Part shown: piece after piece, positions 1,393 through 42,587 of the stretch | Numbering within the stretch: position 1 is the stretch's first letter | Layout: each line of letters starts with the position of its first letter | Made by a program: the position numbers and the translations under genes | The notes under the pieces: generated by a model | Seen by the model: only the letters and a program-made list of their open reading frames with translations | Told to the model about the DNA's origin: nothing | Databases searched by the model: none | Assembly (NCBI GenBank): GCA_963281255.1 | Contig: OY725497.1 | Span: 4,022,968-4,086,967, forward strand | Reading direction: 5' to 3' | Length of the DNA: 64,000 bases | Source: Aphrocallistes beatrix | Lineage: Eukaryota > Porifera > Hexactinellida > Sceptrulophora > Aphrocallistidae

Positions 1393-4576
<3,184 letters not shown>

Positions 4577-6908
4577 TTGATCGAATAAGGAACTAAGTTT
4601 ATTATTTGCGTAACGTCCGATAGGTTATTTATTTATTCTCTTTTTTTACATTACATATATCTATCTATATACGTAATCAATACTCAATTGTCGTATGTGT
4701 ACTTGTGTTGCGTGTGTGTATGTTTATGCACTGAGTGACGATTTTAAAGTGATATTGGATACAATTAATATTGAATATAGTGATAATTTGATCTAAAACC
4801 CGTATCTCTGAAATCATCATCACAATGTCCAATATCTACTGGATCAAATTTCCAAAAATTCTCATACTTCAAAGTACCAAAGCATTATTATTAAATTGAA
4901 AATGCTTTCAGTTTACGTATGTGTGATATACACTATGACTATTGTAACTCAAACTAGCTATGTTAAAAGAAGGTGTGTTTCACTTTTAATAGAAACTGAT
5001 TTACAAACGCCATGCTGATGCATTTCAGCTGAAATTCTGATAGAAGACATTTCTTTCGTCATTCTAAGTACATACCCCTCAGAAAAATGAAAGAAGTAAT
5101 TTTTATTTTCAATTTCGACTTTAGTACAGTTTAATACGCATATGACAACTCAGTATGAAAAAATTTCTATTCAGTGATTGATGTATGTGATATATCTAAA
5201 GTAAAATGATTTCATTTATCTTCAAAGCAAAACATAAAATTTGCCATCTGGTTTCTAATTGGGTAGTTTGACTTCAAAGTTGCTGGCACGATAATTACCT
5301 GGGTCTGTCTCACCATATTGAGAAGTAGTTAAGGACACATTGTGAAAAGTAATTTCTTCAGCATCAGATCATTGGATTTCGAGAATTGGTTATATGTCAA
5401 TAAGCACTTGTTGATAATTATAATCTTTACTGGATCACTGTTTTAGGTGTTGAAGATTCAATTTTTCCGATGAACCTAATTGGATATTTATGTCCAATGA
5501 TTTATAACTAGGTCTGCCTTGTGTGAGAAAATGTAACTGGATACTACGGCAGATTTCATACTCTTCAAAGAATTTCTCAGTCAGCAAATTACCGAGATTA
5601 TCTTTGAGCAATTCAGTAATATATTCCATTTGATTAGAGTCAGGTCTAGAGATAATGTAAGCACATCTGGACTGATTCTAGCTAAAATTAAGAACTATTC
5701 TTCAACTCATTTAGCCATATGACTAATGTGTCTGCGAAACGATGACTAGCGCATTGACTTTTAAATTTCAATCCAATGGTGCTATATTTAATAGGAGTTT
5801 TATTCAGAAAAATACAATCCTCATTGATTCATCTTCTTTTCTTTATCGATTTGTTAGTCATATTTCCCCTATAATCTTAAAATAGTCCTCTATCCTTAAC
5901 ACTCATTATACATAGTTAGTAGAATTGAATGAAGTCATATTCTAATATTTGAGTGAGCCCTGAACTCCCAATTTACTCTGTAATTGTTGTGATCAGTTAG
6001 CGGATCTTCAATTTTCTAATTTTTTCTAATATTATAATAATTATATCTTTACTTAATGTTCGGACTTATTGTCGTTACAGATTCGGACTCAACTGTTGAA
6101 CTTGGAAACTTATCTAAATATATTTTATAGAATTCGCACATTATCACGACTGGATCGAAATGCATAAATATTTATGATCCAATCCCGATTATACTAGATA
6201 GTGCACACCATCTTCATCTGAAAGATCCCAATAATACTTGCTCTATTAGCGACATTATGAACTGGACATTAAATTGTAGATGGAATAAGTTCTGGTGTAA
6301 GCTCTTCGGATTATTCATTTTGTGCAATTGTGTTTACACTAGTAATGACTTCGTATATCCATTACAGCATTGAATATATCGATTCTGCATATCGTGCATC
6401 TTATTGGAATGAATATAAGCAATTAATAATTGTGTGCATATATCAATTACATTTGACTATTTGGATTCATAAATGCTACTAGTAACTTTTCAGAAATATG
6501 TCCGTTGCAATCACTACAACATACAGTGTACGTATATATGTGTTTGGTAGATAAGAACTTATAATCTTTACAGTTAACTCGTATATAACATGTTGTATTT
6601 ACCTCAATACATTGCAACCGACTCCACTTAATAGAGACACATCAGGTCTGTCATTTGGTCCCGGTGGAGTGCACTTATTAAGTAAAGTTTTGAATTGAAT
6701 TGCTATTGTAACATTTTAATTATCGTTTAATTACAAATATAAGAGAGCAAGAACTTATAAGCAAGAAATAATACAAAATAATACATGCGATACACAAAAC
6801 TTCTGCGAAATTGCTAGTTCTGCTCTTGAAGTATTAGCAATTGTTACTCTAACAAAGCATTCTATTTTAAAAGTATTTGAAACGCATTAATTAATCCCCA
6901 TTCCTGAA
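4577..6908. other. AT-rich spacer with part of a segmental duplication
   Basis: There is no convincing gene in this 2.3 kb. About 5567-5960 is recognisably similar to 14601-14900, and 6690-6900 to 15238-15450; both flank paralogous bZIP genes. A short stretch near 6621-6680 (ACTCCACTTAATAGAGACA and an inverted half GGTGGAGTGCACTTATTA) looks like a decayed copy of the CTCCGCTTAAT hairpin family seen at 13657 and 51550. A 64-codon minus-strand frame at 5435-5629 has no recognisable features. Confidence 0.5.
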
Positions 6909-7283
6909 TTACAACGTTTTGACTAAGTGGTTCGCCATTTGATCGAGAGAATTGCACTCTAATTGCAGCTGCAGTAGTTCTTCTTTCAGGAGCATTTTCT
7001 CATTTTCTAAACGCTGAATTTCGCTGTTCGTTGCTTCTCTTTTGACAGTGTCGTAGAGCTTTGCCCTTTCAATTCTCCGAATATTTTTAATTTCGTCCTT
7101 TTTCTCTTTTGGAATCTTCATCTTTTTCATTTCTCTGTTAAGGAGTTTGATATCTAAGTGAATGATATCTTCTAATGGAATAGGATATTCGCTATCAGTG
7201 GGAGTATTTTCCATTTTCGTTAGCTTGTTATTATTGTTGAATCTGTTGCTCTTGTACTTTTTTTGAATATGTTCAAAATGCAT
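6909..7283 (-). CDS. Small Maf-like bZIP protein, copy 1
   Basis: A single-exon protein of 124 residues. It has a basic region followed by a leucine zipper with leucines at exact 7-residue spacing over five heptads (LENEKMLL.., ending LVKTL). Upstream, LNREMKKMKIPKEKKDEI resembles the Maf extended homology region (LNRxLRGFTKEEV...), and the spacing from the Arg-Arg pair to LENEK matches Maf exactly. The invariant bZIP asparagine is replaced by alanine (RIERAKLYDTVKR), while the matching arginine is kept, so DNA specificity is probably altered. I chose ATG 7283 over the upstream ATG 7298 because copy 2 has ATA at that place and a TATA box sits about 30 bases above 7283. About 76% identical to copy 2, most strongly in the bZIP part. 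Function unknown beyond a likely transcription factor. Confidence 0.7.
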   Translation of the reverse strand: MHFEHIQKKYKSNRFNNNNKLTKMENTPTDSEYPIPLEDIIHLDIKLLNREMKKMKIPKEKKDEIKNIRRIERAKLYDTVKREATNSEIQRLENEKMLLKEELLQLQLECNSLDQMANHLVKTL

Positions 7284-7309
7284 TTTTCTTTCCTGCATCC
7301 GACTTCCAT

Positions 7310-7318
7310 GTTTATATA
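7310..7318 (-). promoter_or_regulatory. TATA box of bZIP copy 1
   Basis: On the minus strand the sequence reads TATATAAAC about 30 bases upstream of the MHFE start codon. The same motif at the same relative place precedes bZIP copy 2, although most flanking bases differ. This leaves only a few bases of 5' UTR. Confidence 0.55.
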
Positions 7319-7329
7319 CTCTATTAAAT

Positions 7330-8215
7330 CCAGAATTTTGATTACATACTTTAAACCCTCTGGCACAGAGATGTACCTTTGTTTTGAGTTAATTCAGATT
7401 AGTAATATTTTTCAAGTGTTATTTTTTATTTTTGAAATATGATTAATAGCTTTTATATTAGTGCTTTTTCTATAGTACGTAGGTCTAATTTCGGCAAATC
7501 TGCCTTGTTGCTGATTAGCAAATGGGTCCTATCTAGCAAATATAACATATACAAGAATGTTTGTCACCTTTTATCTCGCCGGCCCAAAAATATAGCTTTT
7601 TTTATGAATAGGATTTTTTAAAAACATTACTCCATAGATTGAGAGTAGTGATATAAATCTACATCTTACGGATACGATATATCTTTGAACCTCGAAACAA
7701 AATCAAGTTATGTATGATGACAACTTCCCTTTCAACACGGAGAAAGTGGTCAAATTCTGCAAAGATATGTTTCATGCAAATTCTGCTCACGTACTTCATT
7801 GGCAGGAGAGTATGAGTGACTGTGCCTAACAACCACAGTTATGTGAGAATCGACCTTGAAACTGAGTCTTGGATCATATTTACGGAATGATAAAGTAAAT
7901 AGACACTGTCTCTTTTCCAGTATTTCGAACTCGCTTGCCTCCATTACTTCTAATTAAACATCCTCCGAATTTTCTGGCTTGTATATTTGATGTCAAGGTT
8001 TTTACTTGAGTCATTTTTATAAATTTTTCTTAAAATTTTACAATTGGGAAACACATGCAACCACCTACTCGTAAAAAATGTAATTAATTAGTCATTTAAA
8101 TAATTAACTGCAATTGCTTTGTCAGAATATATTATTATAGCAATAAATTCTAGATGAGAATGGAGCTATACGTAAATGTATTGTTAACTGAAAAATTACG
8201 AACTACTATATATTC
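7330..8215. other. AT-rich spacer without a recognised gene
   Basis: I see no gene or repeat that I can support. A 64-codon minus-strand frame at 7750-7944 has no domain signature or paralogue in the window. Confidence 0.35.
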
Positions 8216-8223
8216 CTTTAAGG

Positions 8224-8410
8224 CAGAGTTTCTTAACGTTATGCCTCGATACCCCATGAGGTATCGAGATTCATTTTAGGGGGTATCCTATCAGCTGGTA
8301 AAACTAAAATGTACTTGATTATGTGAAATAATAATTACGCCTTATAATAATTTGTTTTGAATGATTAATTTTTTGGGGATATCGAGGTCTGAAAAGGTTG
8401 AGAAACACTG
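8224..8410. mobile_element. hAT-type MITE with perfect 8-bp target duplication
   Basis: The ends are CAGAGTTTCTTAAC and its inverted match GTTGAGAAACACTG, the terminal repeat style of the hAT superfamily. Both sides carry the duplication CTTTAAGG (8216-8223 and 8411-8418). No coding capacity, 187 bp, so non-autonomous. Confidence 0.85.
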
Positions 8411-8517
8411 CTTTAAGGTAATCATAATTTTATTTAAAGCCCCTCACATTTGGCATGGCGTGTGTTCTCACTTTTCAGGGGAAATATATGGGACATCAAA
8501 ATTACGAAGTGGCTATT

Positions 8518-8580
8518 CAGGGTTCTATCTAGGATGTTAAGTTTGGGGGGAAGCTTCCTCCCCCAGCAGATAGAACCCTG
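8518..8580. mobile_element. 63-bp palindromic element
   Basis: Perfect 13-base terminal inverted repeats (CAGGGTTCTATCT) enclose a second palindrome, GGGGGGAAGCTTCCTCCCCC. The direct repeat CTATT flanks it on both sides. The ends resemble hAT-type MITEs, but the 5-bp duplication does not fit that family. Confidence 0.6.
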
Positions 8581-8913
8581 CTATTACAGTACACCGTCGC
8601 TAATCCGAACACTCCATTCTTACAATCCGAATACCCTAAATATAATATTCTTATTCGCTTCTATGCATAGAATCAACGTTTATAATCATATTTTTAAAAG
8701 AGCAATAATAACAAAATATTATCTTTAAATATTCTAACGATACAAATTTTCCGCATCTGATACGTAAGTATTTATTATTAATCCAACTTTAGTATTCCCA
8801 GACCTCTTTGTGTTGCATCAGCTCAGTCGCGCAGTATTTAATCATTCAGTCATATTATTCCAAAAAGACTTAGACAAATTATTGATCATTTCAGAAGCAG
8901 TTGGCCACTATAT

Positions 8914-9061
8914 CAGCGCCGGCGCCACGGTTTTATAAGTGGTCCGGTTTTTACCTTACCAACCGGACCACTTTTGAAAAGTTGTCCGGTTTATCATGAC
9001 CAACCTGGGGCCACTTTTGAAAAGTGGTCCGGTTAAAACCGGACCAGTGGCGCCGGCCCTG
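8914..9061. mobile_element. MITE with GCCGGCGCCA terminal repeats
   Basis: 148 bp bounded by CAGCGCCGGCGCCAC and the inverted CAGGGCCGGCGCCAC. The interior repeats AAGTGGTCCGGTT in both orientations. TATAT flanks both ends, though the surrounding DNA is AT-rich and this may be chance. Confidence 0.65.
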
Positions 9062-9160
9062 TATATACATATAGTCGGCAAACTAAAAATGAAGCATTTT
9101 TGAGGTCTGTTAATAAGTTATCCCTTGAAAGCATTTGGGATTTTTCTATTTATAGTAGTA

Positions 9161-13999: not shown

Positions 14000-15451
14000 G
14001 GTAAATTATAGGGGAGATAACATCTCTAAATACGCCTGTCCTACTATTATAATCGATATCGCACGAAAAATTACCAAATTTGTCAATTTTAAAATTTTTG
14101 ATGAGTAATGATGACGTCACAACAAAGTGATGAGTCATCATTTTTTGATGATAGTCGCATCATATGTGAGGTATGTTAGGATGCAGATTCTATTAAAATT
14201 TCAGCCTTCTATCTCCTATAATGGCTGAGTTATGCTCGAATAACTGTTGCTTAACTTTTAAAAATGTGACAATGACGTCATAATTCCATGATGAGTCGAC
14301 ATTTTGCTCTGAGCTCAGAACTTACTGGAGCCATAGCCAAAAGACTCCCACATGCCAAAAATCAGCTTTCTGTGTCCGGCAGTTTCTTCAATCAATTCGT
14401 TAGAGAGATATATATAGATATATATAAATATACATTAATCGAGTTTTAATAGTAAGGATACTACATCTATAATTAATTGGTGCAACATAATGGAATATAT
14501 ACGTACACCATATAAGGAATGTATGTTCCAAGTTTGGTAAAGATCGGTCAAGTAGATTTCCTAAGAATGTCTATTGACGTCGTACACCATCAATGCCAAT
14601 AAAGAAATTTCTCAGTCACCAAATCACTGAGATTATCTTTTAGCAATTCAGTAAAAATCATATCGTTTAGAATTAGGTCCAGGATTATGTTAAGCACTTC
14701 TGGATTGTTTTATATCTCTAATTAGAAAAATACAATCTTCATTGATTCATCTTCTTTTCTTCTTTTCTTTGCCGATTCGTTAGTCATATTTTTCTTCCGA
14801 GTCTCCAAGTTTAAAATAGTCCCCTATCTATCTTCGCACTCATTATACTTAGTAGAATTGAATGAAGTCATATTCTAATATTTGAGTGAGCCCTGGACTC
14901 GTTTCAATATTCTGAAAGGAGCAGTTTTCATACTAGAATATATTTATTTTTTAATGTACGTTTATTGGTGAGAACCCTCATCTCTCTAGTTTGATTAAAA
15001 AAGATTAATTATGGTCTTTATTCTAAACCTGTGAATGCTGCTGATCCTAAAGACTCTCAAATTCGAATCGCCAGTGGCCCAAAAATGAATTTAGTTGTGA
15101 CTAAATTTTCTAAATTATTAGTATACGTACGTTGTAAAAAACGCTGAAAAAGTCCAGTGATGATTGAGATAGTTCTACCGCCTACAATTGCGAGGGGAGA
15201 CATTAAGCGAGGTTTTTTTAAATCGCAGTGTTTTTATTAATTGTTTAATGTGAATGTTTTTGTATAAATGAATTACAAATTTACAAATGTAGAATAGCGA
15301 GCATTTTATAAACAAGAAATGATACATGCGATACACAAAACTCCTGCGAAATAGCTGGATCTGCTCTTTAAGTATTATCATTCTTTTCTTGTGCAGCATT
15401 TGAAGCATTCTGATTGTGGCACGCATTAATCCCCATTGATAAATCCCTGAA
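14000..15451. other. Spacer with second half of the segmental duplication
   Basis: There is no gene. About 14601-14900 matches 5567-5960 and about 15238-15450 matches 6690-6908, showing that the bZIP gene was duplicated with flanking DNA and not as a processed copy. Indels separate the two matching parts. Confidence 0.55.
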
Positions 15452-15826
15452 TTACAACGTTTTGATTAAGTAGTTTGCCATTTGATTGAGAGCATTGCAC
15501 TCTAAACGCAGCTGCAGCAATTCTTCTTTTAGAAGCATTTTCTCATTTTCTAAATACTGAATTTCGATGTTCGTTGCTTCTCTTTTGACAGTATCGTAAT
15601 GCTTAGCCCTTTCGATTCTCCGAATATTTTTAATTTCACTCTTTTTCTCTTTTGGAATCTTCATCTTTTTCATTTCTCTGTTAAGGATTTTGATATCCGA
15701 GTGAACAATGTCCTTTATCAGAATCGGATATTTGCTATTAGAGAAAGTATTTTCCATTTTCTTTCGCTTATTATTATCGTCGAATCTGTTCGCTCTTATA
15801 CCTTTTGGAACCTGTTCAAAATGCAT
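15452..15826 (-). CDS. Small Maf-like bZIP protein, copy 2
   Basis: A 124-codon intronless paralogue of the gene at 6909-7283. The Maf-like segment and zipper are almost unchanged (9 differences in the last 77 residues or so), whereas the first 47 residues differ at 21 positions. This pattern suggests that the bZIP part is under selection and that the gene is functional. It keeps the five-heptad leucine zipper and the alanine in place of the invariant asparagine (RIERAKHYDTVKR). The ATG at 15826 corresponds to the second methionine of copy 1. Confidence 0.7.
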   Translation of the reverse strand: MHFEQVPKGIRANRFDDNNKRKKMENTFSNSKYPILIKDIVHSDIKILNREMKKMKIPKEKKSEIKNIRRIERAKHYDTVKREATNIEIQYLENEKMLLKEELLQLRLECNALNQMANYLIKTL

Positions 15827-15852
15827 TTTTCTTTGCTGTATCCAACCTTCAT

Positions 15853-15861
15853 GTTTATATA
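15853..15861 (-). promoter_or_regulatory. TATA box of bZIP copy 2
   Basis: TATATAAAC on the minus strand, about 30 bases upstream of the start codon, conserved with copy 1. Confidence 0.55.
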
Positions 15862-15889
15862 CTCACAATTTAATCAAGAATTCTGAATA

Positions 15890-19310: not shown

Positions 19311-22300
19311 ATGTCTCGCATTATTCTCTGTGGAGCGAGTTCAGTGGGAAAGACCACACTGGCGAGTGATTGGTGCTACAAGAATAAGAACAAGAAGCCC
19401 TACGTCCAGATAACAGAGGTTGCAAGAGATGTGATGAGGGAGCATAACATCAGTCGACATGACATGGTGGTGTCTCTGAGTTCTCCAGGCAAGGACCTCT
19501 ATTTCGAACTTCAAGGGATGATTATTGAAGAGCAAAACAAGCGAGAATTCGAGCTACAAAACCAACTCTTTATATCAGATCGCGGTCCTGACCCTTTCGT
19601 CTACTGCTACCTGGAAAACCAGGAGAAAGCGATGAACATGTCTGGTTCGAAAGCATTGATGGATTGCTTTGCACGTTACAGAGAGAGCTTAGTGGTGATT
19701 GTGTGTCCACTCGACAACCAAACAGATGATGGGTACAACTATGTTCTAAGGCGAGAGGATCAGTACAAGTTCACTGATGGGTTACACGAGGTTCTACGTC
19801 ATTTCAGCATTCCATACATGTATCTAGACGAGAAAGACCGCATGCAGCGTGTTGAGAAGCTCAAGAAGGCGGTGGAGGGGGAGATCCCCATTCCCATCAG
19901 CCAGTTCATGGAACAGGACAAGTTTTGTCTGTCCTTTTACTTGGACAGAGAGTCTGCCAAGAAACAAACACACCCACTGCCTTACCTACCCCTGCCCAAG
20001 GAAGGGAAGGAAGCAAGAGTGCGAACGTTTGACCTCAATCCGAGCGAGATCATCTTGACCTGTGATCCCATGGATCGGTTCGAGACCAATAGGATGGTAG
20101 AGCGGTATGGAGAGGACAATTTCGTCTTGATACAGTTTCATCAGAAACTGCCGACCTCCTTGATAAGAGATGTGCTGCAGAAAGGTGTACAGGTGAACGG
20201 CGCGATGTACCAGTTCTTAGGCTGTAGCTCTAGCGGACTGAAAAGTAGGAAGTGCTACCTCCTGAAGGGAGATGTCAAAGATGTTGAAGAGGTTCTCTTT
20301 CAATGCGGAGATTTCTCTAAAATTAAAATGGTATCGAAGCGACTGAAGCGAATCAGTATGCTGTTCTCAGTAGCCAAGGACTCGGATGTAGAAGTACCGG
20401 ATGAAAAAGTCCTCCTCATTGACGATATTGAAACGTCAGGAGGGAATTTCACGGACGGGTGTGGGTTCGTTGGGCTTGAGCTCGCGAAACAGATCGCCCT
20501 AGGAGCTAATGCGCATGTAGAATCTCCGCAAGATAGGATTCCATGCGTGTATCAAATCAGGTTTCAAGGGTGCAAGGGGATCGTGATCAAAGACCCTGAA
20601 GTGGGAACTGATACCATCCATGTTAGAAAATCTATGCGAAAGTTCGATTCTGGTGCACGGCCTTTCCCTAATGTGTGGGTGTGTGACCACTCTCGCCCCT
20701 ACTCCTACGGACATCTAAACAAGCAGTACATCATGTTGCTGTCTGGACTAGGGATAAAGGACGAAGTGTTCTTAAAAAAGCAAGACGACTTCCTCACTGC
20801 TCTGGAGAACATGTTAATCAATCCAGAGTTTGCTGTGGCAATGTTAAACTGGAGGAACCACCCCGATATTGCCCTCAAGATAAACTCCGCTGTCGATCTC
20901 CAACAAGAGGAAGTGCAGCATTGTCTCAGAAAGTTGAGATATAAATTCATCGAGAAAATGGAGAAATTGAGTATACCCATTCTTGATTCTCGTACGTTGT
21001 TTGGTGTTTGTGATCCTAGAGGTGTGATGGAGTATGGGGAATGTTTCATTCGCATCACTGTAAACGGTGTCCCACAAACCCTTGAACCGAATACGTCGGT
21101 AACAGTTGGAAAGAACCCATGTTACCTCCTCGGAGACATTCGTGTTCTCAGAGCCGTGGACCGTCCTGAGTTGAACCATCTAGTCGACTGCATTGTATTT
21201 CCAGTAAAGGGCAAGGCACCCCATTCTGCCGAGATAGCCGGGTCAGACATGGACGGGGACCAGTACTTGGTGTGTTGGGATCAAGAACTTGTCCCCCCTT
21301 CCATGGCTGAGCCCTATGACTACCCTTCCATTGAGGCTTTTCCCTCCGATAAAGTCACCCGAGACATGATGATCGATTATTTCTCCAGACAGAAGAACAT
21401 GATGGGGAGGATCAACAATTGCTTTCAGTATTGGGCCGATCTCAAGAATCCAGGATGTTTTGAGTGCGAGCAGCTTGGTGCTTGGTTTTCCCGAAGTGTG
21501 GACTCTTCAAAAACTGGGGATGTAGTGCGAATTCCCCGCAATCTCGTCCCCCCAAGAAATCCTAATCTTGAAAACATTCCGAAGAAAGTATGGAAGGTCA
21601 TGGAAGGAATAGCGAAAGAGCGCCAAAAGAAGCTAGCAGAGGACGCTACAGACGACGCGCAAGATAACAACCAGACTGCTTGTGCGATCAGCGAGGAATT
21701 CATCAAGACCCTTCTGGATAAAAAAGACCGCAGCATTGGGGAGTACAAGCTCTTTAAACTGGTTTATAAGTGGTGCCAGGTGCAAAATATGGCGGAAGTT
21801 GATAAGTTAGATAAGCTGTGTGAACTTTCTGATCACATTAACTTTGGTCTGTTCACTAATCTGGAGAGGAAGGAAGCCATTCAACTGGGAATTCCAGCTG
21901 AGAAAGTAATGAATGCTCTGAACAAGTCGAAACTCCTCAACAGAGAAATGCTCCGACCGTTCTATCTCAACACCCCAGCTTGTGGATGGAAGTTCTTCTT
22001 CAGAGCTTCAAGTTCTGAGTTCCAATGGCCTAACTTGTACCGTGCGATATTGGACTACCCAGAGTCCATGTTAGTCCTACAACTCCCAATGGAAATCAAG
22101 CTAGCGTTCCACTTCATCGGACCCTTTGAACATGGAGAATCTATCGTTCCCGCCGGCTCTCTCGTTTCTTATTTCTTTTCCCCTCTTTTTGGCTCCAAAC
22201 TGCGTTATGTAACAGAGACGGAGTACAATCTCAATCTCACAGAGCGAGTTATTCAGTTCTATCGAGATAACGACGAAATTAATACTTTCCTGTGGTTAAA

Positions 22301-25300
22301 AAGTCTGATATTTGACAAGGAAGATCCTGACCTGGAACACTACGACAGAGTAAGCATAGACTTGACGAGGTTTGAAAGAACTATAATTAGGATAAAGAGA
22401 CACCCCCTGATCCAGAAAATGCATTTCTACTCCGCAGAGGTGTTTGTCAAGTGTGAGCGCATAGAGGAGATCGCCTACCTCGATATTCATGAATCAGATC
22501 AGCCGGTTAATCTGACCACGACGGACCTAGCCGCTTCTGAAGATTTAGAAGAGCTCCCTAGCGACGAGGAAGACATGCAGGACGACGACATCCCGAGTAC
22601 AGACCCTATCATAATGCGAGCGCCCGACCCTGGTCTGAAAGATATTGCTGAGTTGGCTAGGAAAGGAGAGTATATACAATTCTGTAACATCCTCTCTGAT
22701 GCAAATAGTGACGTGCTCGAATTGATTCAATCATCCAAGCTTTCGGACCAAGTTCTCTCTCTTCTATCTAGTATTATTGTCAAGCATTCACACAAGAATC
22801 CAAAAGCGATAAGTGACTACCTCCGCAAGATTCTGGAATCGCCTCATATCGTATTTAAATCCCCGAAAGACTTCCTTACCCTCTACTCGAGCTTAAGCAA
22901 GCTACACCTGAATGACCTGATTCAGCAGCATATTATGAGGTCACTGGACTCTCTGGTCCTAGATAACATTGCTCAATATTATCAGTGCATCTTTGATTGG
23001 GAATTGTGGTGCTTCGTTCCATTTTCTGCCTCCCTTGAATTGTTACACAAACTTTACGTGTTACAGCTTGACTTGGAGCCTAAAAAGTTGCTAGAACGCG
23101 TCGATTCTTCTGATTCTATCAGTTTGACGATACCCGATACGATTCAGGATTTAGCTCAGTCGGTTGATAAGCAACCTCCTCCAATTGAGGAGAGCGAATT
23201 GAATAAGTACAAATGCCATTTCGCGCATCTGATGCTGTTACACTTGTTAGCGGAGGCTCCAGGTCCAGAAGAGTACAATAAAGTTGCAGACAGCGAGAAC
23301 AGTGTCTGCATGCTGAGAGTGAACAATTCAGAGAATGACAGCGGCAAAGAAACTCTCGTCAACGTAGTAGAGTTAGAAGACAGCAGCGACGAAGATGAGG
23401 AAGTGAAGAACCAAGAGCCAAAGCAAGATTCGAAGCAAACTGGTGGCGTGAAAAAGGAGAAGAAAAAGAGGAAAAAGAAGAAGAAAACGGGAGTAATCAA
23501 AATTTGTTTCTCCAAAATAAACAAAGTGACATGTCGTAGTTTCACTGTTGGCTCTTTCGTGAAAATCAGACTCTTACCCAAGCCTAGTTCTACTCACTCG
23601 AACGAGCCGATAGCCTTCGGATCTCTCTCCAGAGTGTCCACCAGTCCCGCCGCCATCACTGTGGACATTCGCGAGCCTGTGCCCAAGTGTATCTTGCGGT
23701 CAGCAGAGCTGCAGGTCGGATTCTGGTGCTTGACTCTAATCGGTAACGTCACGAGCTTCAAGAGATCAACCAAATCTCTGCGCTGTTTAATCAATTCAGA
23801 GATTACCCCCATCTTGATCTCCCAGGAGGCGTTCCCTCCCACCGTCCACAAAGAGCAGTTCAAGATAGAATTGAATACAGACGCGTCGGATGCCCCGCCT
23901 GAAAAAGAGGCGAAAGATCGTGGGCCTACACACAACCCTTATCCTCTGATGGACAACTGCAACGCTTGTAAATCCCGACCCCGATTTAATCCAAGCCAGG
24001 AGGACGCTATATACTCCGCTCTCCACCAACGCATCACCTTAATACACGGACCTCCAGGAACTGGAAAAACTCACGTTGCATCAGAAATTGTGCATCAAAT
24101 GTATCATTCGATTCAGCGTAATGGTGATGGAGACGTGAAGACGAAGATTCTGGTGGCAGCAGAGACTCATAACGCGGTGGACAATCTCACACGCAAACTC
24201 CTAGGCATGAATATGCTGATTGTACGTGTCGGGAAACTGAGTCAAATCTCTAAAGACATCCACGAGCACACGCTAGACCAGCAGGTCGAAATGAAGCGAG
24301 TGGAGTTAGGCAAGGATAAGAGGGGCGAGTTCCAATCTCCCAAATTGAAGAAGGAAATCCTACATTCTGCGGATATCATAGCCGCGACTTGCACTGGTGC
24401 TGGAGACGCAGACTTGAAAGAAATTAAATTTTCCTTCATCCTCATAGATGAGGCAACTCAAGCTCTTGAGCCAGTCTCCCTAATTTCAATCGTCAAATCG
24501 TGTCAGCAATTAGTCTTGATTGGGGATCCGAACCAATTGGCGCCAATCCTGCCTAGCAAACCTGAATTGCAAAACTATTATTCGAAAGAATCGCCATCTT
24601 TCGAAACTCTTCGGGTCACACTTTTCCACCGACTTCACAAAACAATGGATTCATTATTCCTTGACGAGCAGCACCGAATGCATCCCTACATCGCCTCCTT
24701 TCCCTCCAGGGTGTTCTACCAGGGAAGGCTAAAGAATGGTGTAACGAAAAATGAACGAAGAGCGCCTTCATTGAACTTCCTCTACCCTCACAAACCGGTG
24801 GTGTTCATTGATGTTGAATCGGATGAATGTCGCATCGGTTCTTCGATTAAGAATCCAAGGGAGGCTGACGTGATTGTACACGTGGTCAAGAAGCTCTTGG
24901 CTACGACAGAATTCTCCTGGAAGGATATTGGCATCCTGACCCCGTACACTGGACAGGTAAGGTGCATCAAGGACAAGTTAGAGTTTGTCGCTAAGGTGGA
25001 GGTGTGCTCCATTGATGGTTTCCAAGGGAAGGAGAAAGAGGTGATCGTCTTTAGCACAGTGAGAAGTAATGCGAATGGTGTTTTGGGATTTACGGATGAT
25101 CAGTATAGAATTAACGTATTGCTAACTCGAGCTAAGCGGATCCTTATAGGAGTTGGGAATTATGAAACTCTTTCATACTCTGAGATATGGAAAGATTGGT
25201 TCGGAAATTATGACATCTTATCAGAAGACAAGTTCTATGAACTCAGCGAAATCAAGGATGATTCGAGAGATGCACCACCTTATCGAGACAGAAGTAGGAA

Positions 25301-25520
25301 TGACGGTGCTCGCTCGAATAGGAATAATAATAACTATTACCCTTTCGAGAGACAGAGGGGAAGTGTACAAGTCGTGAACTCCAGACGTAAGCCTCTCACC
25401 GACTTTATAACCTTTCCCAAGAGACAACCTCCTAGAGGGAGAATCTACGAGAGGGATTCAAATCATAATGCCGAGATACAGAAAACCCCTTCTGGAGATA
25501 CAGAAAAACCCGTCTCATAA
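19311..25520 (+). CDS. P-loop kinase-like / RNA-dependent RNA polymerase / SF1 helicase fusion
   Basis: One uninterrupted frame of 2069 residues. Residues 1-195 form a NadR/AAA_28-like P-loop domain: Walker A GASSVGKTT (8-16) and ISDRGPDP (88-95). About 220-850 is a eukaryotic cellular RNA-dependent RNA polymerase (RDR/QDE-1 family): GKNPCYLLGDIRVL, HLVDCIVFPVKG and the catalytic triad Asp646, Asp648, Asp650 in GSDMDGDQY. A helical linker, two acidic patches and a Lys-rich stretch (1381-1393) follow. About 1560-1960 is a UPF1/ZNFX1/Hrr1-like superfamily-1 helicase: GPPGTGKT (1580-1587), DEATQ (1713), QHRM (1787), GFQGKE (1904) and Arg1940 of motif VI. The tail is rich in Arg and Asn. All motifs are intact, so synthesis and unwinding of RNA are expected. 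In other organisms these two activities are separate subunits of RNAi amplification complexes. An AG directly precedes the ATG (see findings). Confidence 0.92.
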   Translation: MSRIILCGASSVGKTTLASDWCYKNKNKKPYVQITEVARDVMREHNISRHDMVVSLSSPGKDLYFELQGMIIEEQNKREFELQNQLFISDRGPDPFVYCYLENQEKAMNMSGSKALMDCFARYRESLVVIVCPLDNQTDDGYNYVLRREDQYKFTDGLHEVLRHFSIPYMYLDEKDRMQRVEKLKKAVEGEIPIPISQFMEQDKFCLSFYLDRESAKKQTHPLPYLPLPKEGKEARVRTFDLNPSEIILTCDPMDRFETNRMVERYGEDNFVLIQFHQKLPTSLIRDVLQKGVQVNGAMYQFLGCSSSGLKSRKCYLLKGDVKDVEEVLFQCGDFSKIKMVSKRLKRISMLFSVAKDSDVEVPDEKVLLIDDIETSGGNFTDGCGFVGLELAKQIALGANAHVESPQDRIPCVYQIRFQGCKGIVIKDPEVGTDTIHVRKSMRKFDSGARPFPNVWVCDHSRPYSYGHLNKQYIMLLSGLGIKDEVFLKKQDDFLTALENMLINPEFAVAMLNWRNHPDIALKINSAVDLQQEEVQHCLRKLRYKFIEKMEKLSIPILDSRTLFGVCDPRGVMEYGECFIRITVNGVPQTLEPNTSVTVGKNPCYLLGDIRVLRAVDRPELNHLVDCIVFPVKGKAPHSAEIAGSDMDGDQYLVCWDQELVPPSMAEPYDYPSIEAFPSDKVTRDMMIDYFSRQKNMMGRINNCFQYWADLKNPGCFECEQLGAWFSRSVDSSKTGDVVRIPRNLVPPRNPNLENIPKKVWKVMEGIAKERQKKLAEDATDDAQDNNQTACAISEEFIKTLLDKKDRSIGEYKLFKLVYKWCQVQNMAEVDKLDKLCELSDHINFGLFTNLERKEAIQLGIPAEKVMNALNKSKLLNREMLRPFYLNTPACGWKFFFRASSSEFQWPNLYRAILDYPESMLVLQLPMEIKLAFHFIGPFEHGESIVPAGSLVSYFFSPLFGSKLRYVTETEYNLNLTERVIQFYRDNDEINTFLWLKSLIFDKEDPDLEHYDRVSIDLTRFERTIIRIKRHPLIQKMHFYSAEVFVKCERIEEIAYLDIHESDQPVNLTTTDLAASEDLEELPSDEEDMQDDDIPSTDPIIMRAPDPGLKDIAELARKGEYIQFCNILSDANSDVLELIQSSKLSDQVLSLLSSIIVKHSHKNPKAISDYLRKILESPHIVFKSPKDFLTLYSSLSKLHLNDLIQQHIMRSLDSLVLDNIAQYYQCIFDWELWCFVPFSASLELLHKLYVLQLDLEPKKLLERVDSSDSISLTIPDTIQDLAQSVDKQPPPIEESELNKYKCHFAHLMLLHLLAEAPGPEEYNKVADSENSVCMLRVNNSENDSGKETLVNVVELEDSSDEDEEVKNQEPKQDSKQTGGVKKEKKKRKKKKKTGVIKICFSKINKVTCRSFTVGSFVKIRLLPKPSSTHSNEPIAFGSLSRVSTSPAAITVDIREPVPKCILRSAELQVGFWCLTLIGNVTSFKRSTKSLRCLINSEITPILISQEAFPPTVHKEQFKIELNTDASDAPPEKEAKDRGPTHNPYPLMDNCNACKSRPRFNPSQEDAIYSALHQRITLIHGPPGTGKTHVASEIVHQMYHSIQRNGDGDVKTKILVAAETHNAVDNLTRKLLGMNMLIVRVGKLSQISKDIHEHTLDQQVEMKRVELGKDKRGEFQSPKLKKEILHSADIIAATCTGAGDADLKEIKFSFILIDEATQALEPVSLISIVKSCQQLVLIGDPNQLAPILPSKPELQNYYSKESPSFETLRVTLFHRLHKTMDSLFLDEQHRMHPYIASFPSRVFYQGRLKNGVTKNERRAPSLNFLYPHKPVVFIDVESDECRIGSSIKNPREADVIVHVVKKLLATTEFSWKDIGILTPYTGQVRCIKDKLEFVAKVEVCSIDGFQGKEKEVIVFSTVRSNANGVLGFTDDQYRINVLLTRAKRILIGVGNYETLSYSEIWKDWFGNYDILSEDKFYELSEIKDDSRDAPPYRDRSRNDGARSNRNNNNYYPFERQRGSVQVVNSRRKPLTDFITFPKRQPPRGRIYERDSNHNAEIQKTPSGDTEKPVS

Positions 25521-28580: not shown

Positions 28581-28916
28581 CAAGATCCTTGTAATTATTT
28601 TCGTTTAAATCCCGCTTCTTTCCAGCGCATTTCTAGTATCAATTCAAGTAATGGTTCTTTGTAAATTTGTGTCTTTTGCAATTTATTTTTTCTGTTATCA
28701 TAAAATATTATTTAAGATGAAATTATTTCTTAACATTACTTTAAGTCCAATGACTACTTATCTGTTCAGATGATGTTATACCACTACACTTGAAGAATCC
28801 TTCAAAATAGCATCACACGTAACACACAAGGTTGCTCATATATCTCCATTCAAATGTTCATGCATGTAGTTTGTATTAATATATAGAATTGTTATTGAAT
28901 TAGAAAATATTCACAT
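28581..28916. other. Spacer before first FAAH-like gene
   Basis: AT-rich; nothing recognised. Sequence similarity to the second FAAH-like gene begins only four bases before the ATG. Confidence 0.4.
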
Positions 28917-30821
28917 ATGTTCAGTTGGTTAGGATTTACATTCGGTGCAGTATTTGCTGCATTTGTGCTCCCTCTCGTGTATTCAGTGGTGAAGGCACTC
29001 TTAGGAGTAGGACCCTCTGGTAGAGTTCATTCAGCCCCTCCCATCCAGGAAGTGATTGATGCAGGAGGAGGAGAATACAATGCACTTGAGAATCACGCAC
29101 CTAAATTGACTGGGAAGCTCTTTGCATGGTTTTGTAATTTCTTGTGGACTCCATTCGGTGAAAAATGGGTACTGCAAAAGCTAATGAATGATAATCGTCT
29201 GTTTGCTGCTAGAGAGCGTTACTTACCGGAAGCAGCTACCTTCTACCCCACACCTCCATTTGTCCCTTTCCCTGAACAAACTGGAGGAGACAAGGAAGGG
29301 AGAGAGGAGAAGAGTAAGGAGGAGGAGATTGAGAGTTTGCTGCACTCTGATTCTCATGAAGAGTCAGGAGGAGGAGAGTTCGTGTTCCCCAGTGTGATGG
29401 AGTATCTGCGTGGTTACAGGTGTGGAAGTGTGACACCGGAAGCAGTGGCAGAGCGTATCATTGAGAGTATTGGTGCATCTGAGTCCCTGTCTCCTCCTCT
29501 CCGCGCCTTTGTCCAGTGGAACGAGTCTGAAATCCGTAAACAGGCTGCAGAGTCGACACGTCGCTATAAGGAGGAGGACAACATCCGTCCATTGGAAGGG
29601 GTGCCTGTTGGAATTAAAGAGAGCATCCCCACTAAGCCTTACGCTCTCCGAATTGGGACCTCTTTCATCCCGATTGGAGCCCAAAACTTCACAGAGCAAG
29701 ATGAATCTGAAGTAGTGCTGAAGCTCAGGAATGCTGGGGCCATTATAGTTGGCGTTAATAACTTGCACGAGTATGGGATTGGAGGGACTGGTGTGAATCC
29801 TAACGAGCTGCACGGAACACCTTGCAATCCGTATGGCCAGTACAGGTATCCCGGAGGCAGCAGCAGTGGGGCTGGAGTTGCCGTTGCTTCTGGTCTCATT
29901 CCCCTCGCGATAGGTACGGACGGAGGAGGCTCAATCCGCATACCTGCATCCCTCTGTGGTATCGTAGGACTCAAAGCTACTTTTGGGAGGATTTCAGACG
30001 CTAGGAGTGTCACTGGTGCTCCGACCGTCTCTCACGTCGGACCAATGTGCACCTCAGTAGCCGACACCGCTCTAGCTTACCTAATCCTAGCAGGTGCTGA
30101 TAAGACAGTTCCACCAAGCATACACCAGGGACTTGTCACCGTGGGAGACTATCTGGATGCTAGCCAACGTGTGAAAGGGTTGAAGGTGGGTGTATACCGC
30201 GCCTGGTTCGATCATTGTGACTCTGAAGTCCGTAAAGCTTGCGAACGCGCTCTCACCTATATCAGGGAAGCTGGCGCTGAAGTGGTGGACGTTCACATTC
30301 CTGAGCTGAACCAAATTCTCACAGGACATGTCCAAATTTTTCTCCCAGAGCTCAGGAGCGCATTTGGATATGATTTCTGTGAGCATTTCCAAGAAATAAA
30401 TCCACATACCAAGCTCTTACTATCGATTAGTCAAGGCGTGACAGGTTCTGACTACATAGTAGCAGCTAGGCAACGGACGAGGTCCATTATGATAATGAAG
30501 TATCTTTTCAAAAAGGTGGACATCTTAGTAACACCCGCCACTGCTTGCACAGCTCCAGGTCTGAATAAATCAATTCTAACTCACGGTGAGAGTGACATCC
30601 ATAACGTTTCTAAACTTATTCGCTACACCGTCCTGGGTAATATGACCGGGGTGCCAGGCATCGCTCTCCCTGTGGGGTATGACTCTAACAATCTCCCAAT
30701 CTCTCTCCAGTTGATGTCCAGCTGGTGGAGAGAAGACCTCCTCTTCTTACTAGCCAGCCAGATCGAGAAAAGAGTAGTGAAGCGGAAGCCTCAAATATTT
30801 TATGATATCTTAAGAACGTAG
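28917..30821 (+). CDS. Fatty-acid amide hydrolase-like amidase, copy 1
   Basis: A 634-residue intronless amidase-signature enzyme with an N-terminal transmembrane helix (about 4-30), as in FAAH. The Ser-Ser-Lys triad is visible: Lys234 in GVPVGIKES, Ser315 in PGGSSSGAG and the nucleophile Ser339 in GTDGGGSIRIPASLCG. GGSSSG and GGGSIRIP are closer to plant FAAH than to mammalian FAAH1. Expected role: membrane-bound hydrolysis of N-acylethanolamines or related fatty amides. Acidic residues 120-145 form a low-complexity insert. Nucleotide blocks 28913-29118, 29205-29606 and 30636-30810 are nearly identical to copy 2; the rest is diverged (see findings). Confidence 0.88.
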   Translation: MFSWLGFTFGAVFAAFVLPLVYSVVKALLGVGPSGRVHSAPPIQEVIDAGGGEYNALENHAPKLTGKLFAWFCNFLWTPFGEKWVLQKLMNDNRLFAARERYLPEAATFYPTPPFVPFPEQTGGDKEGREEKSKEEEIESLLHSDSHEESGGGEFVFPSVMEYLRGYRCGSVTPEAVAERIIESIGASESLSPPLRAFVQWNESEIRKQAAESTRRYKEEDNIRPLEGVPVGIKESIPTKPYALRIGTSFIPIGAQNFTEQDESEVVLKLRNAGAIIVGVNNLHEYGIGGTGVNPNELHGTPCNPYGQYRYPGGSSSGAGVAVASGLIPLAIGTDGGGSIRIPASLCGIVGLKATFGRISDARSVTGAPTVSHVGPMCTSVADTALAYLILAGADKTVPPSIHQGLVTVGDYLDASQRVKGLKVGVYRAWFDHCDSEVRKACERALTYIREAGAEVVDVHIPELNQILTGHVQIFLPELRSAFGYDFCEHFQEINPHTKLLLSISQGVTGSDYIVAARQRTRSIMIMKYLFKKVDILVTPATACTAPGLNKSILTHGESDIHNVSKLIRYTVLGNMTGVPGIALPVGYDSNNLPISLQLMSSWWREDLLFLLASQIEKRVVKRKPQIFYDILRT

Positions 30822-31568: not shown

Positions 31569-31770
31569 TGAGACTTGAGGGACAGACTTGACTTAGCTTG
31601 AGAGACAGACTTGACTTAGCTTAAGGGACAGACTTGACTTGACTTGACATGACTTGACTTGACTTGACTTGACATGACTTGACTTGACATGACATGACAT
31701 GACATGACATGACATGACATGACTTGACATGACATGACATGACATGACTTGACTTGACTTGACTTGACTC
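31569..31770. repeat. GACTT/GACAT pentamer microsatellite
   Basis: An array of five-base units GACTT and GACAT. It is preceded by about three longer units containing ACAGACTTGACTTAGCTT. The mix of two unit types in blocks suggests replication slippage. Confidence 0.9.
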
Positions 31771-32045
31771 GGGACTTTCAATAGAATATAGTCACACATT
31801 CCGGACTTCTACAGTCTGTGAAGTTGACTAAATAAACAAAGAATATATTAAATTAGTTCTTGAATTTAGCCAGTTTACTATTCTCTTGTTTCAATACTAG
31901 TGCATTATATATAGGTCTTAACTTTATTAGAAGTGTATACAATGTTTTAGTTCCATATTAGCACATGCCAAATGAATAATATTAGTACGGGAAGAGCCAG
32001 AATAAATGTTTTAAATTTCTGCTGAGGGTGCAGATACATCGTCGT

Positions 32046-32820: not shown

Positions 32821-32993
32821 TTGCTTATATTATATAATAATTATATAATTATTATATAATAATTATATAATTATTATATAATTATTATATAATAATTATA
32901 TAATAATTATATAATAATTATATAATAATTATATAATAATTGTATAATAATTATATAATAATTATATAATAATTATATAATTATTATATTATT
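32821..32993. repeat. ATAATTAT satellite tract
   Basis: About 170 bases of repeated TATAATAATTA/TAATTATTATA units, self-complementary throughout and so able to form cruciforms. It lies about 60 bases upstream of the second FAAH-like start codon. Confidence 0.9.
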
Positions 32994-33052
32994 TTTTTGT
33001 TTACTATATTCCAAATAGCTATTCAGGGCAACATAAAAACCTTAGGCTACAT

Positions 33053-34951
33053 ATGTTCAGTTGGTTAGGATTTGCTTTCGGTGCAGTATTTGCTGCATTT
33101 GTGCTCCCTCTCGTGTATTCAGTGGTGAAGGCACTCTTAGGAGTAGGACCCTCTGGTAGAGTTCATTCAGCCCCTCCCATCCAGGAAGTGATTGATGCAG
33201 GAGGAGGAGAATACAATGCAATTGAGAATCACGCACCTAAATTGACTGGGAAGCACTTCGTATGGTTTGGGAGATTTATGTGGACTCCATTCGGTCAGAA
33301 ATGGTTACTTAGTAAAATTATGAAAAAGAACCGGGTTTTGGCTGCTAGAGAGCGTTACATGCCGGAAGCAGCTACCTTCTACCCCACACCTCCATTTGTC
33401 CCTTTCCCTGAACAAACTGGAGGAGACAAGGAAGGGAGAGAGGAGAAGAGTAAGGAGGAGGAGATTGAGAGTTTGCTGCACTCTGATTCTCATGAAGAGT
33501 CAGGAGGAGGAGAGTTCGTGTTCCCCAGTGTGATGGAGTATCTGCGTGGTTACAGGTGTGGAAGTGTGACACCGGAAGCAGTGGCAGAGCGTATCATTGA
33601 GAGTATTGGTGCATCTGAGTCCCTGTCTCCTCCTCTCCGCGCCTTTGTCCAGTGGAACGAGTCTGAAATCCGTAAACAGGCTGCAGAGTCGACACGTCGC
33701 TATAAGGAGGAGGACAACATCCGTCCATTGGAAGGGGTGCCTATTGCTGTGAAGGAACATTTCCTTACCAACCCATATGAACTTCGAATCGGTTGCAATT
33801 TTATCCCTACATGTGCACATAGTTTGGATGGTAGCGATGAGAGTGAATCAGTGTCGATGATGAGGAGAGCAGGCGCTATCATAGTGGGAGTAGCTAACAT
33901 ACATGATAATGGGATAGGAGGTACTGGCTCCAACCCTAACCAACTCCATCTAACAGCTCGCAACCCATATGATCTGCACAGGTACCCCGGGGGGAGCAGT
34001 AGCGGGTCTGGGTCTGCAGTTGCTTCTGGACTTGTACCTCTCGCACTCGGAACTGATGGAGGTGGATCTGTCCGAATTCCAGCCTCCCTCTGCGGGATTG
34101 TTGCGCTGAAGCCTACTTTTGGGAGAATTTCAGAGGCGAGAATGGTACCGGCAGCATTCACAGTGGCGTACCCGGGTCCGATGTGTACGTCCGTAGCAGA
34201 CACGGCGCTCTCCTACCTCCTGTTAGCAGGAGTGGATAGGAACGATCCTTTCACTGTGAGCCAGGGTCCTGTAACATTGGGGTGTTATCTGAATGCCAGC
34301 CAAAGTGTGAAAGGGTTGAAAGTAGGTGTGTATCGTGCTTGGTTTAATCATTGTGATCCAGAGGTGTTGAAGGTGTGCGAGGAGGCCCTCACCTGGACAA
34401 AGGAGGCGGGAGCAGATATTGTCGATATACACATTCCGGAAATGAATGAACTACTTTCAGCACACGTTTCAACCTTTTTAACGGAAATTTTGAGTGTGTA
34501 TCAATATGATCTCCCCAAGCGTTTTGGAGAATTGTACGGTGAAACGCTTTTAAGTTTAGCTGTCGCTAGCCAGGTGTCAGGTGCTGATTACACTATGTCT
34601 GGGAGACAGAGAACAAGAGCAATTAAGACATTGGAACACGTGTTTAAGCAGGTTGACATCATCATCACCCCAACCACCGCCTGCACTGCCCATCCTATAA
34701 AGCCTCAAGCTGTGAAATATGGAGAGAGTGACATCAACACAACTGCCAAACTAATTCGATTCAACGTCCTTGGTAATATGACCGGGGTGCCAGGCATCGC
34801 TCTCCCTGTGGGGTATGACTCTAACAATCTCCCAATCTCTCTCCAGCTGATGTCTAGCTGGTGGAGAGAAGACCTCCTCTTCTTACTAGCCAGCCAGATC
34901 GAGAAAAGAGTAGTGAAGCGGAAGCCTCAAATATTTTATGATATCTTATAA
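33053..34951 (+). CDS. Fatty-acid amide hydrolase-like amidase, copy 2
   Basis: A 632-residue tandem paralogue of the gene at 28917. It has the same membrane anchor and an intact amidase triad (lysine in PIAVKEH, serine in PGGSSSGSG, nucleophile in GTDGGGSVRIPASLCG). The diverged central part (residues about 231-573) keeps conserved lengths and motifs, so both copies are probably active, perhaps with different substrates. The coding blocks at residues 1-67, 97-230 and 574-632 match copy 1 almost base for base. It ends two codons earlier than copy 1 (IFYDIL then stop). An AG lies 7 bases before the ATG. Confidence 0.88.
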   Translation: MFSWLGFAFGAVFAAFVLPLVYSVVKALLGVGPSGRVHSAPPIQEVIDAGGGEYNAIENHAPKLTGKHFVWFGRFMWTPFGQKWLLSKIMKKNRVLAARERYMPEAATFYPTPPFVPFPEQTGGDKEGREEKSKEEEIESLLHSDSHEESGGGEFVFPSVMEYLRGYRCGSVTPEAVAERIIESIGASESLSPPLRAFVQWNESEIRKQAAESTRRYKEEDNIRPLEGVPIAVKEHFLTNPYELRIGCNFIPTCAHSLDGSDESESVSMMRRAGAIIVGVANIHDNGIGGTGSNPNQLHLTARNPYDLHRYPGGSSSGSGSAVASGLVPLALGTDGGGSVRIPASLCGIVALKPTFGRISEARMVPAAFTVAYPGPMCTSVADTALSYLLLAGVDRNDPFTVSQGPVTLGCYLNASQSVKGLKVGVYRAWFNHCDPEVLKVCEEALTWTKEAGADIVDIHIPEMNELLSAHVSTFLTEILSVYQYDLPKRFGELYGETLLSLAVASQVSGADYTMSGRQRTRAIKTLEHVFKQVDIIITPTTACTAHPIKPQAVKYGESDINTTAKLIRFNVLGNMTGVPGIALPVGYDSNNLPISLQLMSSWWREDLLFLLASQIEKRVVKRKPQIFYDIL

Positions 34952-42521: not shown

Positions 42522-42587
42522 GATTTTGTGTTGATGTTAATAGTAATTTATTTATAGATACCATCTAATTAGCTTGTAAAGCAAATA

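Follow-up and report, generated by a model that had tools for sequence, protein, structure and literature searches.

A kinase-like domain, a cellular RNA-dependent RNA polymerase and an SF1 helicase joined in one reading frame of a sponge

The window considered here, a stretch of 64,000 nucleotides from the genome of the glass sponge Aphrocallistes beatrix, carries on its forward strand an open reading frame (19311..25520) that starts with an ATG, contains no internal stops and encodes a protein of 2069 aa. This protein is made up of a NadR-like P-loop kinase domain, a cellular RNA-dependent RNA polymerase (RdRP), a helical linker and an SF1B helicase of the UPF1/IGHMBP2 group, with the following features.

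19311..25520, + strand: kinase–RdRP–SF1 helicase gene, 2069 aa, single frame with stop codon included; three paralogues of like plan in the same genome
19311..19925, + strand: P-loop kinase domain (Pfam AAA_28), residues 1-205, predicted fold nearest to NadR ribosylnicotinamide kinase
19332..19355, + strand: Walker A motif of the kinase-like domain, GASSVGKT, residues 8-15 (alignment)
20061..22490, + strand: cellular RdRP region, residues 251-1060, Pfam core 251-753 (Pfam, 2.8e-110; PDB sequence match)
21246..21260, + strand: RdRP catalytic loop DMDGD, residues 646-650 (alignment)
22623..23180, + strand: helical linker, residues about 1105-1290 (AlphaFold model of residues 1051-1570)
23181..23801, + strand: helicase stalk and 1B beta-barrel, residues about 1291-1497
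23340..23453, + strand: acidic, then lysine-rich stretch in the 1B region, residues 1344-1381 (sequence; pLDDT <50)
23955..25220, + strand: SF1B (UPF1/IGHMBP2-type) helicase core, residues 1549-1970 (Pfam, PDB sequences)
24048..24071, + strand: helicase motif I, GPPGTGKT, residues 1580-1587
24447..24461, + strand: helicase motif II, DEATQ, residues 1713-1717
24669..24680, + strand: helicase motif QHRM, residues 1787-1790
25119..25136, + strand: helicase motif VI, LLTRAK, residues 1937-1942
25221..25517, + strand: Arg/Asn-rich, weakly conserved tail, residues 1971-2069 (alignment)

The domains follow one another on a single chain in the order AAA_28, RdRP and SF1 helicase. Among the 25 of 34 Pfam matches listed are AAA_28 at residues 3-177 (4e-12), RdRP at 251-753 (2.8e-110) and an AAA_11/AAA_12 helicase inside 1558-1951 (7.5e-53 for AAA_12), and a search of PDB sequences relates residues 285-767 to the RNA-dependent RNA polymerases 7w82 (6.3e-52) and RDR2, and residues 1554-1967 to UPF1 (7.5e-61). 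Given the length of the frame and three family matches at such E-values, a chance occurrence is far excluded. The original prediction, made from the letters of the window, that a polymerase and an SF1 helicase share one chain is borne out by the single frame and by both sets of matches; the motifs that it quoted are all present (D646/D648/D650, GPPGTGKT, DEATQ, QHRM, GFQGKE and NVLLTRAK), and the catalytic residues, in the polymerase (three aspartates) as well as the helicase, are intact as it had stated.

The RdRP match to PF05183 scores 370 bits against a cut-off of 23.8 and covers positions 8-555 of the 582 in the profile. The DxDGD loop of cellular RdRPs reads DMDGD here, and RNA-templated RNA synthesis by the protein is predicted. 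The helicase has the features of the UPF1-like SF1B group, namely an AAA_11 and AAA_12 core with its catalytic motifs, preceded by a stalk and a 1B barrel. UPF1 and IGHMBP2 share these parts, but are found without a polymerase or kinase, and the zinc-binding (CH) domain of UPF1 is absent among the 25 of 34 Pfam matches listed for the sponge protein. The IGHMBP2 of this genome is a separate gene (L024, with SMUBP-2 1B, R3H and AN1 domains). Residues 1559-1956 also match MkoA, a prokaryotic anti-phage helicase model in PADLOC (1.5e-81), the match being limited to the helicase and including no RdRP.

The likeness of the N-terminal domain to NadR ribosylnicotinamide kinase consists of a P-loop kinase fold, which is predicted here, and the Walker A motif; by sequence nothing significant was found in the PDB (best Rab7 at E 0.13, and a NadR profile match at E 0.34). 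In the model of residues 1051-1570 the pLDDT is mostly >90 over about 1105-1255, and no convincing match of the helical linker to known folds was found. The original prediction was silent on the kinase-fold N-terminus, the helical linker, the helicase stalk and 1B barrel, and the three paralogues.

The gene runs without an intron over 6.2 kb, while the neighbouring gamma-tubulin complex gene is spread over two frames, a feature that could point to an assembly join of two genes, a contaminant or a decaying copy. All of these can be regarded as effectively ruled out. Four genes in the genome have the same plan, the other three lying in single open frames elsewhere (one in C1, two in C13), so the join between domains that the original prediction had flagged as a danger is rejected. 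The downstream genes are of animal type (PTB+SH2, RanBP1-repeat and E2-binding ThiF) and the protein falls into a clade with the sponge Oopsacas with support of 100 in both polymerase and helicase trees, which together make an animal host likely. An NG86 comparison of the four paralogues gave dN of 0.20-0.51 per module, far below dS (1.5-3.3, with 8 of 30 dS estimates failing, probably through saturation), which argues against decay; in one paralogue (L016), however, RdRP aspartate 648 is missing and DEAT is changed to DDAT, although its frame is still full. A viral origin was also considered and rejected: viral contigs were scanned with a nine-sequence alignment of the family (A1), and of the 69 pattern matches obtained, relatives were encoded at two loci, both of which match helicase residues only (1550-1951 and 1559-1944), and no RdRP relative was found in these contigs.

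The polymerase–SF1 helicase fusion is real and is not unique to this genome. It is present in at least 117 proteins, of which six belong to the genome itself or are near-copies; the number includes the window protein and its three paralogues (P0002 resembles L015 at 99.95% and P0014 resembles L016 at 99.1%). The carriers include sponges, an anemone, a coral, bivalves, a rotifer and diatoms, and a fusion confined to this one sponge is not supported. All three parts were detected by phmmer in 82 of the 365 proteins examined, a count that takes in P0001 and near-copies of the genome's own paralogues, and 36 more have RdRP and helicase without a kinase match. The kinase-like part is found in sponges, anemone, bivalves and rotifer, with a weaker match in the diatom Amphora (23 bits, phmmer); AAA_28 was not found in the diatom Seminavis (P0112). 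P0001 is identical to the 2069-aa protein and is probably its own record, not an independent confirmation. The protein searches used the best 120 of 154, 157 and 807 matches, from a database that seems to contain unspliced gene calls, so that intronless copies are perhaps over-represented and records with RdRP only are perhaps pieces of fusions.

Active-site columns are readable in 108 of the 117 proteins: the three RdRP aspartates are kept in 102, the helicase K/D/E/R set in 103, and both active sites in 100, which fits the earlier judgement that the protein is unlikely to be a relic. RdRP residues are missing in P0018, P0028, P0031 and P0032, and these damaged sites, together with that of L016, indicate that polymerase activity does not fully account for all of the copies.

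Separate polymerase and helicase trees, as advocated by the original prediction, were built for 48 fused rows (helicase >330 aa, RdRP >650 aa). They have 24 of 45 splits in common, whereas 1000 shuffles of the labels never gave more than 2, so the two parts share a history; the tip distances correlate at r 0.93 (shuffled maximum 0.28). A single ancient joining fits best. An AU test does not reject one clade of fused helicases (p 0.555), but does not prove it either: its design omitted, as long branches, 9 of the genome's 11 SF1 rows, and the six helicase-only records P0239-P0243 and P0295 were counted as fused (presumed gene fragments), a choice made post hoc with the tree already known. In the free helicase tree (96 rows, with stand-alone records above P0248 sampled at one in five plus named ones, and without 12 of the genome's 23 non-fused SF1 sequences) the fused helicases cluster with one another across phyla, but the Stylophora and P0113 rows fall outside the fused clade, against a strictly single fusion. 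The RdRP tree was made with 96 of 200 rows after clustering at 65% identity; on it the label has to change 11 times for AAA_28 plus helicase and 11 times for helicase alone, and some of these changes probably reflect broken gene records. Local capture of a cellular helicase was rejected, as the best clearly identified non-fused match is IGHMBP2 (L024) and the fused helicases group across phyla.

In total, nine RdRP genes, each in a single frame and built to one of two one-chain designs, are present in the 100-Mb genome, five of them combining a Dicer-type SF2 helicase, an RdRP and a putative nucleotidyltransferase. Three of its ORFs (1510-1538 aa) match RNase III twice each, and its 24 matches to the Piwi domain include 11 that are near-complete.

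The protein belongs to an old family of one-chain enzymes, which we consider would probably (at about 0.6) act as self-contained synthesisers of double-stranded RNA, the helicase aiding the polymerase and the product serving Dicer and Argonaute. The helicase would grip single-stranded RNA and, powered by ATP, would remove structure and proteins or feed the template to the polymerase, which would copy it into double-stranded RNA; this unwind-and-copy mechanism is one that we infer. The product could then be passed to the Dicer and Argonaute proteins encoded in the same genome, for defence against viruses or mobile elements. The kinase-like domain might, with low confidence, bind a nucleotide or nucleoside and so switch the enzyme on, or act on its product. 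This reading is supported by the three modules in frame, the conserved active sites, the congruent trees, the clade of fused helicases that the AU test does not reject, dN below dS, the RNase III and Piwi genes, and the precedent of the RDRC in fission yeast.

Several known systems invite comparison. Dictyostelium-type RdRPs have a Dicer-like SF2 helicase at the N-terminus; they too place helicase and RdRP on one chain, but use a different helicase superfamily at the opposite end from that of the sponge protein, and a Dictyostelium-like plan recurs in the five genes of the second design in this genome, which have a nucleotidyltransferase-like region in addition. In fission yeast the helicase partner is Hrr1, which we take to be of SF1 type. 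The RDRC of that yeast comprises Rdp1, the RNA helicase Hrr1 and Cid12, and its polymerase and helicase jointly make double-stranded RNA for Dicer, but as separate chains, with a poly(A) polymerase subunit and without a kinase-like part (PMC2965749). A nucleotidyltransferase of the RDRC type is absent among the 25 of 34 Pfam matches listed for the 2069-aa protein, where RdRP and helicase are present; the putative one resides in the other gene type.

The Branchiostoma lanceolatum RdRP BL02069 carries AAA_12 (Pinzon et al. 2019, PMC6396948, Fig 1 legend), so the combination of RdRP with AAA_12 was already in print, which also goes against a fusion unique to this sponge. As described, BL02069 combines a eukaryotic RdRP domain, its catalytic residues intact, with AAA_12, half of the SF1 helicase of the sponge protein; the passages on it name no kinase-like part, and the word helicase is absent from the main text (PMC6396948). 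A bdelloid paper counts many RdRPs and does not use the word helicase (PMC7943196). The kinase–RdRP–SF1 helicase plan was not found described in the literature searched, which was largely passages with little coverage of subscription journals. Wide prior description in animals, which the original prediction had named as a refutation of it, was not found in this literature, though the fusion itself occurs in many animals.

Two other readings place the weight differently. The fusion may be a tether only, with the parts serving different steps, ATP hydrolysis uncoupled from RNA synthesis, and the single chain fixing stoichiometry in the manner of a recruited complex; in fission yeast Rdp1 and Hrr1 are distinct chains of a complex (PMC2965749), and here the polymerase is set apart from the helicase core by the helical linker and an insert of low model confidence. 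This is a genuine possibility, though the helicase–polymerase joining persists across animals and diatoms, which speaks against it. Alternatively, the helicase could be the main engine of an RNA-sensing or surveillance factor that remodels RNPs, the RdRP marking or tailing targets with no part in RNAi. Its closeness to UPF1/IGHMBP2, the best PADLOC match of the helicase part to an anti-phage model and the damaged RdRP sites in whole-frame paralogues are in keeping with this, as are results from other animals: the Branchiostoma authors (Pinzon et al. 2019, PMC6396948), one of whose RdRPs carries AAA_12, wrote that possibly no active RdRP is expressed and speculated about a function outside RNAi, a later lancelet paper cites that work as showing no RNAi role, and secondary siRNAs are reported to be undetectable in Nematostella, which has four RdRPs. 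These studies speak against an RNAi role of RdRPs in those animals. We nevertheless think a surveillance factor rather unlikely, with the catalytic aspartates so widely kept and the UPF1 zinc-binding domain absent from the Pfam matches listed.

Animal RdRPs are widespread, yet their role in RNAi outside nematodes is thinly evidenced. One lineage of animal RdRPs that shares its chain with an SF1 helicase and a kinase-like domain offers a concrete hypothesis of double-stranded RNA synthesis by one chain, perhaps gated by a nucleotide, that is addressable with one recombinant protein, and a small genome with nine RdRP genes is a handy setting. That the family is an old, largely overlooked eukaryotic RNA-defence machine, its synthesis of double-stranded RNA gated by a nucleotide or metabolite that the NadR-like domain binds, is a speculation that we would call improbable as it stands. 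If it were true, sponges would be animals with RdRP-based amplification of RNAi that evolved separately from the nematode kind, those copies whose polymerase sites are damaged would act as regulators, and the sponge enzyme would work beside a second one-chain machine of Dicer-like helicase, RdRP and nucleotidyltransferase. The five genes of this second type received no mention in the original prediction.

The window protein is encoded by one uninterrupted frame of 2069 codons with no internal stop (19311-25520, forward strand), and the polymerase and helicase catalytic residues named in the original prediction are confirmed in it. Pfam (25 of 34 matches listed) places three domains along the chain:

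Residues 3-177, AAA_28, kinase-like
Residues 251-753, eukaryotic RNA-dependent RNA polymerase (RdRP)
Inside residues 1558-1951, AAA_11/AAA_12 SF1 helicase

A PDB sequence search matched residues 285-767 to cellular RdRPs (7w82, RDR2) and residues 1554-1967 to UPF1. The top NCBIfam model is the IGHMBP2 family (265 bits, under the cut-off of 348.9), and the top PADLOC model, MkoA, covers the helicase part only. Judged from sequence, the kinase-RdRP-SF1 fusion is real and old, with a predicted function.

A homology search with this protein gave 154 proteins (best 120 listed), and domains were surveyed in 365, comprising 356 listed database proteins and nine from the sponge's own genome. All three domains occur together in 82 of the 365 and RdRP plus helicase with no kinase match in 36, counts which take in the window protein itself (P0001) and near-copies of its paralogues L015 and L016. 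Among the listed proteins, RdRP and helicase are joined in sponges and bivalves (Oopsacas, Dysidea, Mercenaria, Mya), in Actinostola, Stylophora, Adineta steineri, Amphora and Seminavis, and in Attheya, where the helicase is cut. The ascomycete Microdochium record (P0169) stops within the helicase (AAA_11 1233-1320), and the Macrostomum, Dreissena and Rotaria records have an RdRP without helicase. With P0001 set aside there are 117 fused proteins, 108 with readable active-site columns; the RdRP DDD is intact in 102 of these, the helicase set in 103 and both in 100. RdRP residues are missing from the near-copies P0014 and L016, P0018 (Oopsacas), P0028, P0031 and P0032, and the helicase set is incomplete in P0014, L016, P0018, P0071 and P0077. 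The Walker A lysine column is kept in 77/81 fused proteins with an AAA_28 match.

For 48 fused proteins, the RdRP tree and the helicase tree agree in 24 of 45 splits (at most 2 in 1000 shuffles), with a tip-distance r of 0.93 (shuffled maximum 0.28). Constraining all fused helicases to one clade was not rejected (AU p 0.555, with 9 of 11 own-genome SF1 rows dropped as long branches and six helicase-only records, chosen after seeing the tree, counted as fused). The plainest reading is a single joining of polymerase and helicase followed by co-inheritance; transfer between kingdoms is conceivable. In the broader RdRP and helicase trees alike the window gene clusters with the glass sponge Oopsacas minuta (support 100), which makes a hexactinellid host most likely.

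The own-genome assembly (100.5 Mb, 28 contigs) holds nine RdRP loci, every one a long single frame, and four follow the window plan: the window gene, L015 (62% identical to the window protein), L014 and L016. L014 no longer has the kinase Walker A pattern (it reads GANSADKA there) and keeps its polymerase and helicase motifs; L016 has damaged RdRP (DLAGD) and helicase (GYPGSGKT/DDAT) motifs and an intact kinase motif.

G000:C13:3364700-3374600, ORF 3026-9067, minus strand, L016, full-length paralogue

In this genome, among the 29 candidates scored out of 47, AAA_28 was found in window-type genes only, and in three of those four. Between paralogues, dN is 0.20-0.51 per module and 0.19 for the RdRP core, against a dS of roughly 1.5-3.3 (8 of the 30 dS estimates failed). 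Elsewhere, twelve AAA_12 (SF1 helicase) matches lie within 60 kb at G000:C1:11255663-11313868, all on the minus strand; their frames span 379-1465 aa and one is interrupted by stops. This cluster is a local helicase expansion.

Cellular RdRPs make dsRNA from ssRNA, and UPF1-group helicases move along ssRNA driven by ATP. In fission yeast RDRC the polymerase and an RNA helicase are subunits of one complex (PMC2965749). In the one-chain enzyme the helicase would most likely clear the template and feed it to the polymerase. Three own-genome ORFs of 1510-1538 aa carry paired RNase III matches, the Dicer pattern, and the genome also has 24 Piwi-domain matches (11 near-complete); an RNAi toolkit is therefore present in part. 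Four Piwi-domain genes stand in tandem over ~15 kb at G000:C13:444877-459986. An RNAi reading of the enzyme is weakened by earlier work, since the Branchiostoma authors question whether any RdRP there is active or serves RNAi (PMC6396948; the RNAi doubt is cited likewise in PMC12373286) and secondary siRNAs are given as absent in Nematostella (PMC12768352). The polymerase-helicase pairing was visible earlier, because a figure legend of Pinzon 2019 gives one amphioxus RdRP an AAA_12 domain (PMC6396948). In the text available from the literature searched, no description of the kinase-RdRP-SF1 plan was found; what appears new is this plan as a variant, an RdRP with AAA_12 being already known from amphioxus. 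The sponge Amphimedon encodes no RdRP according to a 2018 paper (PMC6211395), whereas the sponges Oopsacas and Dysidea do have one in our homology search.

The remaining five RdRP genes (2576-2636 aa) are of a second one-chain design, all with a DECH helicase motif and RdRP:

L053:61-7809, SF2 helicase-RdRP gene, single frame
L054:125-7891, SF2 helicase-RdRP gene, single frame
L055:67-7827, SF2 helicase-RdRP gene, single frame
L011:1040-8947, minus strand, SF2 helicase-RdRP gene, single frame
L012:865-8592, minus strand, SF2 helicase-RdRP gene, single frame

Pfam matched an SF2 helicase in all four searched (L009/L053, L011, L054, L055), and the PDB neighbours of L011 are Dicer, LGP2 and MDA5. 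The C-terminal part has GS-x10-DLD and then a conserved VDI/IDI Asp in 5/5. A nucleotidyltransferase domain here is only putative, because the MTPAP-like_central matches (1.1e-5 in L054 and L055, 5.5e-4 to 7.6e-4 in L011 and L053) are all under the Pfam cut-off and the top solved nucleotidyltransferase match, a TUTase, has E 0.69. The five genes would bring the three kinds of RDRC activity together in one chain (nucleotidyltransferase putative), with another helicase type, SF2 DECH (Dicer/RIG-I-like).

Downstream of the RdRP gene in the window are animal-like ORFs: one with PTB+SH2, one with five RanBP1 repeats and a WH1 match, a ThiF ORF that has an E2-binding domain, TMEM144 and amidases. 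On the upstream side nothing was recognised beyond an M24 peptidase frame and a weak bZIP match. The amidase genes are in tandem (28899-30821 and 32981-34951; two blocks, 300 and 228 nt long, are 90-93% identical), with a GACTT/GACAT pentamer array (31611-31788) and an AT-rich palindromic array (32828-32996) between them. Short-chain dehydrogenases are likewise in tandem (42573-43385 and 44152-44952; 98% identity over 300 nt). Upstream of the RdRP gene, a 1.1-1.5-kb block occurs in two diverged copies (5801-7321 and 14719-15864; 85-96%, piecewise) spaced about 8.5-8.9 kb apart, and a frame in the copy at 5801-7321 gives a weak bZIP_Maf match just below cut-off.
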